From: a virus
Strand: one strand, 5' to 3'
DNA length: 64,000 nucleotides
Virus record (IMG/VR): IMGVR_UViG_3300020195_000009
Location: 124,001 to 188,000 of that record
This document shows positions 43,315-63,967 of this stretch, in pieces (within the stretch, counting starts at the first letter, position 1; each line of letters begins with the position of its first letter). Position numbers and translations under genes: made by a program. Under the pieces are notes generated by a model, which worked only from the letters and a program-made list of their open reading frames with translations, made no database searches and was not told the origin of the DNA.

Positions 43315-43376
43315 CTCGTGTCGAGGGGAAAGGGAGCCGAAGGCCGCAACCTGCGGCCCCCTCCACCCCGCCTCAA

Positions 43377-44246
43377 CTAGACGTTACCCAGGATGTTCGA
43401 GAAGTCCTCGCCTGAGATGTCGGATCCGGGAGCTGCGGTTCCACCACCACCAGGCATCAAGCCGAGCTTCTCACGAATCTCATCGACACTCAGCTCGCGG
43501 AACGGGCTCATCTTCTTGTAGAAGGTGACGGCCTTCTCCAGGATCTTGCGCTTGAACTGCTCGTTCTTGGAGTACAGCGCCGGACCGGCCTGGGTGATCG
43601 TGATCTTCTGGAACTGGGTATCCGAGCACGACATGTGAAGGTCGATGCCCGAGAGGGAAGTGCTGCTCTCCAGAAGCCCTCGGTTGATCTTCCGAAGCAC
43701 TTCGTACTTGTCCGGCGAGAAGCGCCAGGGTTTGATCTGCCACTTACGGGCGAGCGCTTCCTTGTCAATCTCCCCATCCCGGTCGGTCGGGTAGATGAGC
43801 AGGAGCGAGATCACGTAGTCCTTCTTCTCCCCCAGCTTCGCAAAGACCTTCTGGTCTTCGGTGGAGATTGGACCCTTCGGCGCCGCAACGTAACCGACGT
43901 CCTTCTTGTAGTAGCCGGAGGCGGTTCGGAACCTCGCCTCACTCAGGTCGAGAAGGTCCACCTGGTCAAGCTGGTCGGCCGATTTGTTGAGCTTCGTAGC
44001 GACGGCAACCCGAACCTTTTCGACGAGGTCCTTCTTCTGAGCGGGGGTGAGGTCAGGCTTCGCAAGGACCGCCTTGCGCAACTGTGATTGCTCGTGGCTG
44101 TTGAAATACACGAAGGCAACCCGGTCCGTACGACCCTTCTCACCCTTGTACCAATCGGTCTGGTTGGACTGGACCTTACCCTTGTCCTCTTCGCCGAGAC
44201 CGATTTCGTTGTCGTCGAGTTCAATCTGAGATTCGCTGTCACTCAT
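43377..44246 (-). CDS. Putative single-stranded DNA-binding protein
   Basis: 289 residues. No OB-fold signature can be proven, but the organisation fits a gp32-like SSB: charged N-terminus, a central alpha/beta region (DYVISLLLIYPTDRDG, KWQIKPWRFSPDKYEVL, IDLHMSCSDTQFQKITI) and a short glycine-rich, acidic C-terminal tail (SDISGEDFSNILGNV). A long structured leader precedes it (44247-44414), reminiscent of autoregulated SSB genes. Flanked by resolvase/RecA and RecD2. The gp32 gene of T4 is similarly regulated through leader RNA. Identification is moderate. Confidence 0.6.
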   Translation of the reverse strand: MSDSESQIELDDNEIGLGEEDKGKVQSNQTDWYKGEKGRTDRVAFVYFNSHEQSQLRKAVLAKPDLTPAQKKDLVEKVRVAVATKLNKSADQLDQVDLLDLSEARFRTASGYYKKDVGYVAAPKGPISTEDQKVFAKLGEKKDYVISLLLIYPTDRDGEIDKEALARKWQIKPWRFSPDKYEVLRKINRGLLESSTSLSGIDLHMSCSDTQFQKITITQAGPALYSKNEQFKRKILEKAVTFYKKMSPFRELSVDEIREKLGLMPGGGGTAAPGSDISGEDFSNILGNV

Positions 44247-44414
44247 TGGAATGGCTCCTTAAACATGCCGCCCGGATACATCACTACGGATAGGTATTGC
44301 CGGGAACAGGCTGGTTAGTGGAGTACGGACACTGGACAGTGTGTGAGGTTGCCCTCTGACATGGTCGTGTGCCGTACCCCACTTGGATATACACCACTCC
44401 AACTTTGATGGCCG
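44247..44414 (-). promoter_or_regulatory. Structured leader RNA upstream of putative SSB gene
   Basis: This 168-base intergenic region folds, on the transcribed strand, into a junction: a 12-bp closing stem (44383-44372 with 44328-44317, one G-U pair), a hairpin GAGG-GCAA-CCTC (44356-44345) with a GNRA tetraloop, and a hairpin CACT-GTCC-AGTG (44341-44330). A second hairpin (44304-44294 with 44279-44271, 9 bp, two-base bulge) follows, then AAGGAG and the ATG at 44246. The closing G-U is an A-C mismatch and the tetraloop is not GNRA on the other strand, so the RNA is read from the minus strand. Class unknown; autoregulatory leader or ligand-binding RNA are both possible. Confidence 0.7.
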
Positions 44415-45494
44415 TTAGATGTTCTTGAGAAGGTCAGAGAAATCAAAGTCCCCATCCTCACCCGCGGGTGAGGATTTAGCCTCATTCAATTGAGGTTTGG
44501 GCTTCTCTTCCTTCTTCTTGGCTTTGACGTCAGACTTTGATGTCGAGCCATTCGCCTTATCACTGATTTCAGAGCCAAGGAAGCGGTTGATGTCCGCTTC
44601 TTCTGTAGAAGGGGTGGCTGCTGGAATAGGACTGCCGGAAAGCAGCATATCTGCAAGGTCAAGAGCAGACTCTTCCTTCCCGGACGGAGCCATAACGACA
44701 GGCTCTTCTTTCATAGGAGGGGCGGCCGGAGGCTCGACCTTTGGGGATGACGCTACCACTTCTGGCTTGGGATCTGGTACCGGCTCAGGCTTGGCTTCAA
44801 CCACGGGGAGCTTGGGTTCCGAAACCTTGGGCTCGGGCACGGGTAGCTTAAGCTCAGAGGCTTCCGCCTCGACCACGGGAGCTTCGGAGCTATCGCTGCA
44901 ACCCGCCCCTAAGTTCCCTGCTTCGGCTCGCATGAGTCGATCAATTTCACCCTCGTCGATACCATTATCTTCCATTGGAAGGGCTCGACCTTTGCCGTCT
45001 CTGGGGCCGTCAAACTCATCACCGTAGCCCGCACCTGACACACGATCCGCAAGAAGAAGAGAGCGCTGCGTCTTGATGTTGTCGCTCGTCCGTACAAGCT
45101 CCTTGTGCCTCAGGAGGACTGCCTTCTCGATCGTATCAAGGTCACTGATCTCTTGCTTGAGCGTCACGACTCGACTGATCCGATCCCGTAAGGCCATGTT
45201 GGCCGAAGCTTCGCGATCCTTGATGTTCGGGAGCCTACGGATGGTCTCGTTCTCAGATAAAAGCTGGTTCAGTTCGATCTGGTAAGCCGCTTCTTGTCCC
45301 GCGAGGTCCTGACTGAAGCCACGCTTCTCCCTTTGAATCTGAAGAAGGAGCATCGTGGCCCGGTTCAAGTAGTTGCGGCACTGGGAGATGACTTGGTTTA
45401 GGTACCTCGGACCCAAGACCGTCGGGTCGGGCTCCAGCTCGATCCCCATACCCAAGATTTCTTCGTAGATCGCATTGACTTGTTTCAGGTCCAT
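44415..45494 (-). CDS. Hypothetical coiled-coil protein with acidic tail shared with SSB
   Basis: 359 residues. Residues 1-150 are helical with heptad-like stretches (RYLNQVISQCRNYL, KQEISDLDTIEKAVLL). Residues about 190-330 are P/E/K-rich, disordered repeats of the kind VPEPKVSEPKLP. The last residues, GDFDFSDLLKNI, resemble the tail of the putative SSB (GEDFSNILGNV). A shared C-terminal peptide may dock on the same partner. The gene directly follows the RecD2 gene and precedes the structured leader. No family known. Confidence 0.7.
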   Translation of the reverse strand: MDLKQVNAIYEEILGMGIELEPDPTVLGPRYLNQVISQCRNYLNRATMLLLQIQREKRGFSQDLAGQEAAYQIELNQLLSENETIRRLPNIKDREASANMALRDRISRVVTLKQEISDLDTIEKAVLLRHKELVRTSDNIKTQRSLLLADRVSGAGYGDEFDGPRDGKGRALPMEDNGIDEGEIDRLMRAEAGNLGAGCSDSSEAPVVEAEASELKLPVPEPKVSEPKLPVVEAKPEPVPDPKPEVVASSPKVEPPAAPPMKEEPVVMAPSGKEESALDLADMLLSGSPIPAATPSTEEADINRFLGSEISDKANGSTSKSDVKAKKKEEKPKPQLNEAKSSPAGEDGDFDFSDLLKNI

Positions 45495-57793: not shown

Positions 57794-59200
57794 TCATTCG
57801 GCCCCTTTGATGTTCGCGACCGGCATCATGCGGTGGGCGATCTTGGCGATGCCTTCATCTTCGAGAACCGCAAGAACGGCATCGAGGTCCTTGTAGACGT
57901 GCTTGCATTCGTCGACCGGGATGTTCTTGTGGTTCGAGATGATCCCTTCGATCGTCACACCTGCAAACGTTCGCTGGACGTCGTGCATCTCAGCGTTGAT
58001 TCGATCCTGCTTGGGACCCAGGCTCTTCTTTGCCTTGCTTCGCCCAAGAGTCCGACCCGACCCGTGGTTGACGGAGTACCCGGACTTGGAGGCTCCAGCC
58101 TGAGCGAATAGGATCGCAGCTCCGTCGTACATCGAACCGGGGATGCAGCACGGGTGTCCTGTGTCCGCCCACTTCGTCCCCACGAGATCGGGATGCCCAG
58201 CCGGGAAGGCACGGGTTGCCCCTTTACGGTGGACGAAGCCCTTCTTCGTGGTGCCGTCGGGGAGGACCAGGGTTTCCTCTTGGACGAGGTTGTGGCTGAT
58301 CTCGTAGTAGACCTCGCCCTCAACGTTGAAAACCTCTTGGAGAGCCTCCTGGATGCCTTTGACGATGACGTGGCGGTTGGCCACGGCAAAGTTGGCAGCG
58401 CTGTTGTGGTAGCGCCAGTAGTCCTTCCCAACCTGCTCGTCCATCCGAAGCCAGGACTCTTCACGTCGGTTACTGGGAAGACCACGGGCCTTGGCCCCCT
58501 CGAAGAAGAAGTGATCGGCGGTTTGCCAGCCGTACCCCCGGCTCCCGCAATGGATCATCACCCAGACTTCTGCTGTGTCCCGATCCACCTGCATCTCGAT
58601 GAAATGGTTGCCTCCGCCGACACTACCAAGCTGAGGGATGACCTTCGAGTAGGCCTTCTGGACCATCTTGAAGTCGGTACCCTCCGGGATCGGGATGTAC
58701 TGACGTTCGCATAGGTCGGCTGAGACCCCCAAGGCCTTGGCTCCGAACCGGAGGATCTCATCGGCCTGGTTCTGGTTGAAGTGGGGCATGAGGTTGGGTC
58801 GTTCGGACCCAACCCCGGTCGCGATTCGCTTCTCGACCTCCTTGACCCAACGCTCCCGAGGGTACCGACCCCGAACCCCACTCGCCGTGAGCCCAGGGAC
58901 CTTCATGTAAAGGACCCCACACGAAATGTCGTAACCAGAACCCGACTGGATGATCGTGTCCTCGGTTACAACGACCCCACCGACAGGAATTCCGTATCCG
59001 ATATGACAATCGGGCATAAGGTAGGCGCCGATGACTCCCTCATAGGAGGCGCTCGTCTTGATCTGCTCCCACATGTTCTCTTCCGAGGAGTTGTAGAGAT
59101 CCTCGGACAAAAAGGCGTGCGCCTCCACCTTCATCTCGCCGACTTTTGGCAAGACATAGTGGTTGGAGCCGACCTTTTGCGCTGTGTACTTGAGGGACAT
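57794..59200 (-). CDS. rtcB: RNA ligase RtcB
   Basis: 468 residues, near the E. coli 408 plus an extension. RtcB motifs: PDCHIGYGIPVGGV, GSGYDISCGV with the Mn-binding aspartate and cysteine, GGNHFIE, MIHCGSRGYG, ISHNL and the catalytic histidine in VNHGSGRTL, then SNHKNIPVDECKHVYK. RtcB joins 2',3'-cyclic phosphate or 3'-phosphate RNA to 5'-OH with GTP and Mn, repairing tRNAs cut by anticodon nucleases. Together with tRNA genes and tmRNA upstream it forms an RNA repair and rescue group. Terminal motif AHRMMPVANIKG matches the family end. Confidence 0.93.
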   Translation of the reverse strand: MSLKYTAQKVGSNHYVLPKVGEMKVEAHAFLSEDLYNSSEENMWEQIKTSASYEGVIGAYLMPDCHIGYGIPVGGVVVTEDTIIQSGSGYDISCGVLYMKVPGLTASGVRGRYPRERWVKEVEKRIATGVGSERPNLMPHFNQNQADEILRFGAKALGVSADLCERQYIPIPEGTDFKMVQKAYSKVIPQLGSVGGGNHFIEMQVDRDTAEVWVMIHCGSRGYGWQTADHFFFEGAKARGLPSNRREESWLRMDEQVGKDYWRYHNSAANFAVANRHVIVKGIQEALQEVFNVEGEVYYEISHNLVQEETLVLPDGTTKKGFVHRKGATRAFPAGHPDLVGTKWADTGHPCCIPGSMYDGAAILFAQAGASKSGYSVNHGSGRTLGRSKAKKSLGPKQDRINAEMHDVQRTFAGVTIEGIISNHKNIPVDECKHVYKDLDAVLAVLEDEGIAKIAHRMMPVANIKGAE

Positions 59201-61445: not shown

Positions 61446-61677
61446 CGAGAACGTGGGAGGTGCCGAGACGCGGAGGGTTGGACAAACCTCCCAAATCTCA
61501 ACGGTTTTCCGTTACGTCCGCGACTTCGCCCAAACCCTAAGGTGCGGCTCCGTCGAAATGAGACCCCAAGCCGAGGCGCGGTCCCGGATGATCATATTAC
61601 ACCGAAATGACGGCAGGGCTCCACCTTTTTCAAAGTGGAGCCCTGCCGGGGCCAGTAGGTCTCCCTTTCAGGAGTTG
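61446..61677. other. Intergenic stretch between HNH and VWA genes
   Basis: Contains the terminator hairpin at 61612-61647 and, on the coding strand just after it, an AT-rich TAATATGAT block near 61590-61600 that could be a -10 box; no convincing -35 was found. Nothing else is evident. Confidence 0.5.
61612..61647 (-). terminator. Terminator hairpin after the HNH gene
   Basis: GGCAGGGCTCCAC (61612-61624) pairs perfectly with GTGGAGCCCTGCC (61635-61647), a 13-bp stem with a loop of CTTTTTCAAA. It lies 31 bases after the HNH stop in the transcribed direction and precedes the VWA gene. Strong enough to terminate or protect mRNA. Confidence 0.8.
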
Positions 61678-62560: not shown

Positions 62561-62578
62561 GACTTTAGACCTAATTTG

Positions 62579-62925
62579 TGGAGCTGCGGGGTACTGCCCC
62601 CCGGTCCTCCAGAAGTCCGATGACGCCTTCATTCACGTACGTAGTCGAAGTATCCCCCTCGACTGAGTTCGTAGATTCGGCCACGACCTATTCCCGCTGT
62701 TCCTCTCGACCTTTGCACCGCAAGACACGTGCTCGGTCCAGCCCTAGTGGTTGACAGGCTCTCCGCTACCAGGACGATCTGGCGGGAACCCGGCCTTCAG
62801 GCCGCCTTGAGAGCGGTGAAAGCGAAAGCGTTGTCGTTGGCGACTAGCTTGTGCTCGATTGAACAGGTCGAGCGCTGTTGTACGCAGATGTCACTTCTTT
62901 CCAGAGTCGAATCTATTTCAGCCCC
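62579..62925 (-). ncRNA. ssrA: tmRNA (one-piece)
   Basis: The 5' end GGGGCTG (62925-62919) followed by ATTCGACTC matches the conserved tmRNA start, and the 3' end CAGCTCC-A (62586-62579) pairs with it, including the G3-U70 wobble used by alanyl-tRNA synthetase. A 6-bp GCTCGA/TCGAGC helix fits PK1. The resume codon GCC at 62841 follows TAGTCGC; the tag is ANDNAFAFTALKAA, ending at TGA 62797 within a GGCC/GGCC helix. The 5-bp T-stem (CGGGG/CCCCG) has the loop GGCAGTA rather than TTCRANN. CCA is not encoded. Length 347, as expected. Rescues stalled ribosomes and tags proteins for proteolysis. Confidence 0.92.
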
Positions 62926-62973
62926 TTTCGTACTCCTACCCTACACCAAGAAGCATCGAAGAGCTAGTGCTAG

Positions 62974-63058
62974 TACCCGTAGAGGGAGTCGAACCCTCAG
63001 CGCCCACAAGGAGCCGCGAATTTTAAATTCACTGCGTCTGCCATTCCGCCACACGGGC
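62974..63058 (-). tRNA. tRNA-Leu (anticodon TAA)
   Basis: 85 bases. Acceptor GCCCGTG/TACGGGT with two G-U pairs, a typical leucine long variable arm, T-arm GAGGG-TTCGACT-CCCTC, anticodon loop TTTAAAA giving TAA. CCA not encoded. Shares a near-identical D-arm with the next tRNA. Confidence 0.93.
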
Positions 63059-63062
63059 CTAG

Positions 63063-63143
63063 TACTCAGGAAGGGGATCGAACCCTCACGGTTTTACCCG
63101 GTGGATTTTGAATCCACTGCGTCTGCCATTCCGCCACCTGAGC
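63063..63143 (-). tRNA. tRNA-Leu (anticodon CAA)
   Basis: 81 bases. Acceptor GCTCAGG/CCTGAGT, variable arm of class II type, T-arm with GGTTCGATCC, anticodon loop TTCAAAA giving CAA. CCA not encoded. Four bases separate it from the TAA leucine tRNA, with highly similar 5' halves. Confidence 0.93.
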
Positions 63144-63941: not shown

Positions 63942-63967
63942 CTCTCCGTTCCAAGTTACTACACCAG

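Follow-up and report, generated by a model that had tools for sequence, protein, structure and literature searches.

The 64-kb window, by which we mean the whole stretch of DNA analysed here, belongs to a 286-kb record of an uncultured virus (phage). On its minus strand, the genes run in the order NAD-dependent DNA ligase, RecD2 helicase, gene X, the leader under study, an ssb-like gene, a RuvC-like resolvase and RecA. The leader (44247-44414, minus strand, 168 nt) separates gene X (44415..45494, minus strand; 359 aa, unknown) from the ssb-like gene (43377..44246, minus strand; 289 aa) and constitutes the widest intergenic gap of the recD2/gene X/ssb/ruvC/recA cassette. The same cassette is carried by many other virus contigs, with gene X as a neighbour in nearly all relatives. 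Close relatives have a ruvC that is 57-86% identical to that of the window, and a distant group has an ssb that is about 30% identical; contigs of bacterial genomes returned one weak protein match only. No multisubunit RNA polymerase genes were found in the 286-kb record.

Several minor features accompany the cassette and its surroundings. Directly after the ssb stop codon lies a GGCCGCA..UGCGGCC hairpin without a U-tract (43315-43376), a possible 3' structure. In the 485-kb phage LR745208.1 (L003), an HNH gene is found between ssb and ruvC, and the RecD-like gene (L003 3-1973) contains an intein-like insert that starts with C after ...VIDE and ends ...HNYVAGNVIVSN-C. A tmRNA gene and two tRNA genes occupy 62576-63143 on the minus strand of the window, slightly upstream of an RtcB-like RNA ligase gene (57794-59200).

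The SSB-like protein has no sequence match in Pfam, PHROGs or PDB. A family model derived from 59 homologues reached a pLDDT of 87.6, the modelled protein being a 243-aa relative and not the window protein. Compared with the PDB, this model matched the core of T4/RB69 gp32 with Z 8.5-10.0 over 159-166 aligned residues, and the next fold scored 4.4. The first prediction for the window protein itself, from nine sequences, was poor (pLDDT 47). The ssb family is predicted to adopt the gp32-core OB fold, and its members carry an acidic tail at the C-terminus, as does the window protein. This predicted fold strengthens the assignment of the downstream gene as an SSB, which had been made earlier from the letters alone. 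The SSB-like protein and the product of gene X share an acidic C-terminal ending with the pattern D-F-x-(D/N)-(I/V/L)-L-x-N-(I/V/L), which is kept in relatives; this common ending is perhaps a docking peptide for one partner.

Folding of the leader favours the transcribed strand, for which the z-score against shuffles is -3.58 and none of 200 shuffles folds as well; for the opposite strand, the values are -1.87 and 8/200. The 5' part of the transcribed leader forms a ladder hairpin, P2 (44317..44383, minus strand), with a 12-bp base stem, 3-bp helices including GAC/GUC between 2x2 internal loops, and a GNRA tip. The base stem pairs AGUGGGGUACGG (44383-44372) with CCGUACUCCACU (44328-44317) on the minus strand through 11 Watson-Crick pairs and one G-U, and a stem of this length was matched in 0/200 shuffles. 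The tip is the hairpin GAGG-GCAA-CCUC (44356-44345). Both elements had been described in the sequence-only reading and are present as it described them. That reading also placed a second hairpin (ACACU/AGUGU) inside the closing stem, but its pairing probability is about 0; the three-way junction with two inner hairpins was rejected at -27.7 kcal/mol, 8.8 worse than the single ladder hairpin at -36.5 kcal/mol, in which the GAC/GUC helix has a pair probability of 0.97. A short upstream ORF within P2 was also considered and set aside, being present in the window and, by eye, unconserved.

The GAC/GUC core of P2 is shared by homologues. Most relatives have stems of 10-17 bp at the same place with unrelated sequences, and these stems exceed shuffles at P<=0.02 in 9 of 17 leaders. 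Since hardly any sequence is common to the stems, P2 could not be usefully aligned with MAFFT. L025, L023, L028 and L081 either lack the hairpin or have a short one, so it cannot be essential everywhere.

The second element, P3 (44262..44316, minus strand), adjoins the ribosome site and consists of AAC/GUU, GCC/GGC and CCCGG/CCGGG helices with a conserved CAA-UAC...GUA-U internal loop. A hairpin ahead of the ribosome site had been proposed earlier as a 9-bp stem; the hairpin exists, but it is an interrupted one of 14 pairs (3+3+5+3 bp, 44316-44262). A plain MAFFT alignment of eight leaders (A8: the window, L001, L023, L024, L025, L026, L040 and L043) yields the same 14-pair structure in RNAalifold. 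In this alignment, 97.3% of cells are paired, compared with 25-42% in slid controls, compensatory changes occur at 5 of the 14 pairs, and the covariation score is reached by 0/500 shuffles. Across the window's clade (clade A), P3 keeps the unpaired letters CAA/CUC-UACC..GUA-U. Model R1 has a single P3 match in this genome and one in each of six same-clade relatives, always before ssb. In two pattern scans covering 2.9 million viral contigs, no additional R1 match exceeded the chance level.

Analogous hairpins precede ssb in more divergent cassettes. An alignment of four leaders from a second clade, clade B (A15), contains a comparable hairpin with compensatory changes at 10/15 pairs. Model R3, built from these four leaders, finds further ones precisely where they are expected (L027, E 0.0097; L028 and L031, E 0.04). 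In the distant group, a variable-sequence outer stem surrounds a conserved GUC..GAC, and 83-84% of cells are paired in alignment A12 and the model-fitted A14 versus 27-45% when slid. The leader sets were picked by protein homology, and the search for the GUC..GAC form covered 49 distinct upstream regions. The hairpin stands upstream of 22/49 distant ssb genes, a count that is not blind, as the form was spotted by eye before counting; shuffles scored with the same rule average 0.75, with a maximum of 3. Under that rule it also occurs in 9/245 coding windows and in 8/136 regions upstream of gene X, ruvC, recA and recD in the same cassettes. The strict form is absent from the other 27/49 distant leaders. 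Generic stems of at least 5 pairs were discarded as a signal, since coding windows reach 80% and the measure is uninformative. The P3 of the window is found by neither R3 nor R2. Because no single model spans the three hairpin groups, their unity is inferred from shared position and layout.

In the most distant ssb leaders (L221 to L246), the GUC/GAC core is swapped for other small apical hairpins, for example, GCUU/AAGC and GCCG/CGGC. These replacements sit inside GGCGC/GCGCC-like stems.

Such comparative data bear on the possibility that the pairing merely reflects chance in a G+C-rich leader. Taken by itself, P3 shows no exceptional stability (mean z -0.60 over the last 88 nt), so that its ordinary z-scores would suit a chance origin, and folding energy alone was dropped as proof of the hairpin. 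Compensatory changes in three alignments, together with the excess of GUC..GAC hairpins over shuffles, refute this explanation, to which we give almost no weight. The strong evidence for selection on RNA is this comparative covariation. The G-U pair and the GNRA loop, which had been cited for that purpose, both exist, but are too weak alone to carry the claim. The sequence-only reading had itself named covariation among homologous leaders as its test, and the alignments bear out its view that selection acts on the RNA of this leader ahead of an SSB gene. Its statement that no known RNA class is involved also agrees with the Rfam 15 search of the leader, in which nothing exceeded the gathering threshold. 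We are highly confident that the leader functions as a conserved RNA.

Between P3 and the start codon lies a short A-rich stretch that contains the putative Shine-Dalgarno sequence AAGGAG (44255..44260, minus strand; read from sequence). Over 28 leaders, the interval averages about 19 nt, with 44% A and 12% U. In the window, the GGA of the Shine-Dalgarno sequence is predicted to be partly to mostly paired, and hence the ribosome site may not be open there; this modelled pairing may be a local addition. The idea that Shine-Dalgarno sequestration is conserved was rejected, as the long-range 5'-3' pairing appears in the full-leader fold of the window, is weaker in L001 (by eye) and is found in none of the other relatives. 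The 5' arm of that pairing precedes the point at which transcription is presumed to begin. A pseudoknot between loop and Shine-Dalgarno sequence was likewise rejected, the complementarity in 28 leaders being not above that of shuffled loops.

A short motif in the leader, GGTGTA (44390..44395, minus strand), is a promoter-like element or transcript start that appears early in 17 leaders (the window and 16 homologous ones). It is the top hexamer for sense-strand intergenic enrichment over 184 kb of the record. The excess was reproduced in 120 kb beyond the window that had played no part in its discovery, where 9 of 35 occurrences are intergenic against about 1.6 expected. No sigma-70-like promoter was seen at the leader. 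GGTGTA appears to be a promoter or start element, and it probably serves these phages as a promoter element that has no recognisable -35 box. Given the enrichment and the recurrence in leaders, transcription starting downstream of 44317, which would undercut the sequence-only reading, is unlikely. With stems chosen by inspection, the distance from GGTGTA to the first base of P2 is 6-10 nt in 12 of 13 scored leaders and 14 nt in L043. If GGTGTA marks the promoter or start, the ladder hairpin would lie at or near the mRNA 5' end.

This geometry would also suit a role in mRNA stability or processing only, with P2 opposing 5'-end-dependent decay, P3 acting as a barrier or ribosome standby, and no specific protein involved. 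The ssb mRNA must be abundant, P2 begins close behind the presumed 5' end, and it keeps a long stem while the sequences are unrelated. However, a simple barrier would not require the specific unpaired letters that P3 keeps in clade A, or its GUC/GAC core in the distant group, and the element is specific to ssb. We regard stability as the sole function as a tentative alternative that deserves some weight, though it is improbable overall.

The strong stem in the biggest gap of the cassette would also fit a terminator or attenuator placed between gene X and ssb, or a means of insulating ssb from upstream translation. Neither hairpin is followed by a U-tract, though, no terminator-like site was found at the leader, and covarying internal loops beside the ribosome site are not needed by terminators, which leaves this explanation very improbable. 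Somewhat less remote, but still doubtful, is another ligand for the leader, either another protein, of phage or host origin, or a small molecule acting through a riboswitch. Conserved internal-loop letters inside variable stems, and the lack of an Rfam class, would be in keeping with such a ligand. On the other hand, the element is found only before ssb and not before metabolic-pathway genes, and the motif drifts fast between groups, unlike a metabolite-binding core.

The closest functional parallel is offered by gene 32 of T4 and RB69. In T4, gp32 acts as its own repressor, first nucleating at a 5' pseudoknot and then extending over an unstructured ribosome site; the T4 and RB69 operators have diverged, but each functions with the gp32 of either phage (PMC535899, PMC3014915). 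As in those operators, the present leaders place a folded RNA 5' of a less structured ribosome-site stretch in the mRNA of a (here predicted) gp32-fold SSB, and sequence differs between relatives while structure is kept. The details differ. The T4 operator is an H-type pseudoknot, whereas hairpins account for the covariation here and the loop-to-ribosome-site comparison detected no pseudoknot. T4 has UUAAA/UAAA repeats in an A+U-rich ribosome-site stretch, whereas none occur here and the stretch is A-rich but U-poor; it spans more than 40 nt in T4/RB69 gene 32 and about 19 nt here. The huge-phage leaders further possess the additional 5' ladder hairpin and share no sequence homology with the T4/RB69 operator. 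The leader is not a member of the gene 32 operator RNA family. It may nonetheless work like that operator, because the outline anatomy is the same: a gp32-like protein, a folded element, an A-rich ribosome-site stretch and fast divergence.

Two other systems invite comparison. In the T4/RB69 gene 43 (DNA polymerase) operator, a plain hairpin upstream of the ribosome site is likewise found, and there it is bound by the encoded replication protein; that hairpin has 16-18 nt and a conserved loop, whereas those described here have about 30-55 nt, conserved internal loops and a different protein (PMC3014915). The STAXI motif is also a candidate structured element that sometimes occurs near ssb genes, but it consists of tandem pseudoknots near many DNA-manipulation genes, in contrast to a single hairpin at the ssb ribosome site (PMC2864571).

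Taking as established the structures, their covariation, their restriction to ssb, the predicted gp32-like fold and the GGTGTA spacing, we lean slightly towards SSB autoregulation after the manner of gp32, with the leader as a cis-acting element of the ssb mRNA across a large group of huge phages, an analogy that the sequence-only reading had raised. Transcription would begin at or just after GGTGTA (44395-44390), so that P2 would form at the extreme 5' end of the transcript and P3 would directly precede the A-rich ribosome site. The SSB would most likely recognise P3, perhaps together with the weakly paired P2 ladder, as its nucleation site, and would then spread cooperatively over the adjacent A-rich Shine-Dalgarno stretch. 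Initiation would be blocked once ssDNA stops taking up SSB, resulting in repression. In this scheme, P2 would probably also shield the 5' end of the mRNA.

The leaders could represent a new and widespread class of phage cis-regulatory RNA, a proposal whose chances we consider evenly balanced. The class would comprise a pseudoknot-free, fast-evolving hairpin operator for self-control of the gp32-fold SSB of huge phages, coupled with a 5' ladder that keeps a constant spacing to a new promoter element. The existence of dozens of ssb leaders in huge phages with conserved but different structures would point to SSB autocontrol as a general phenomenon. They would also offer a natural series of co-diverged RNA-protein pairs for asking how a sequence-blind SSB recognises one mRNA.

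The GGTGTA motif recurs beyond the ssb leader. On the minus strand of the window it is present at 63965, 61603, 44395, 6065 and 5550, and it also occurs in L253-L258. Some intergenic copies directly follow a terminator-like hairpin or a tRNA. One such site lies in the 232 nt that separate an HNH gene from a VWA-domain gene (61446-61677), where a terminator-like hairpin is succeeded by GGTGTA and then, by eye, by what appears to be a further structured leader.
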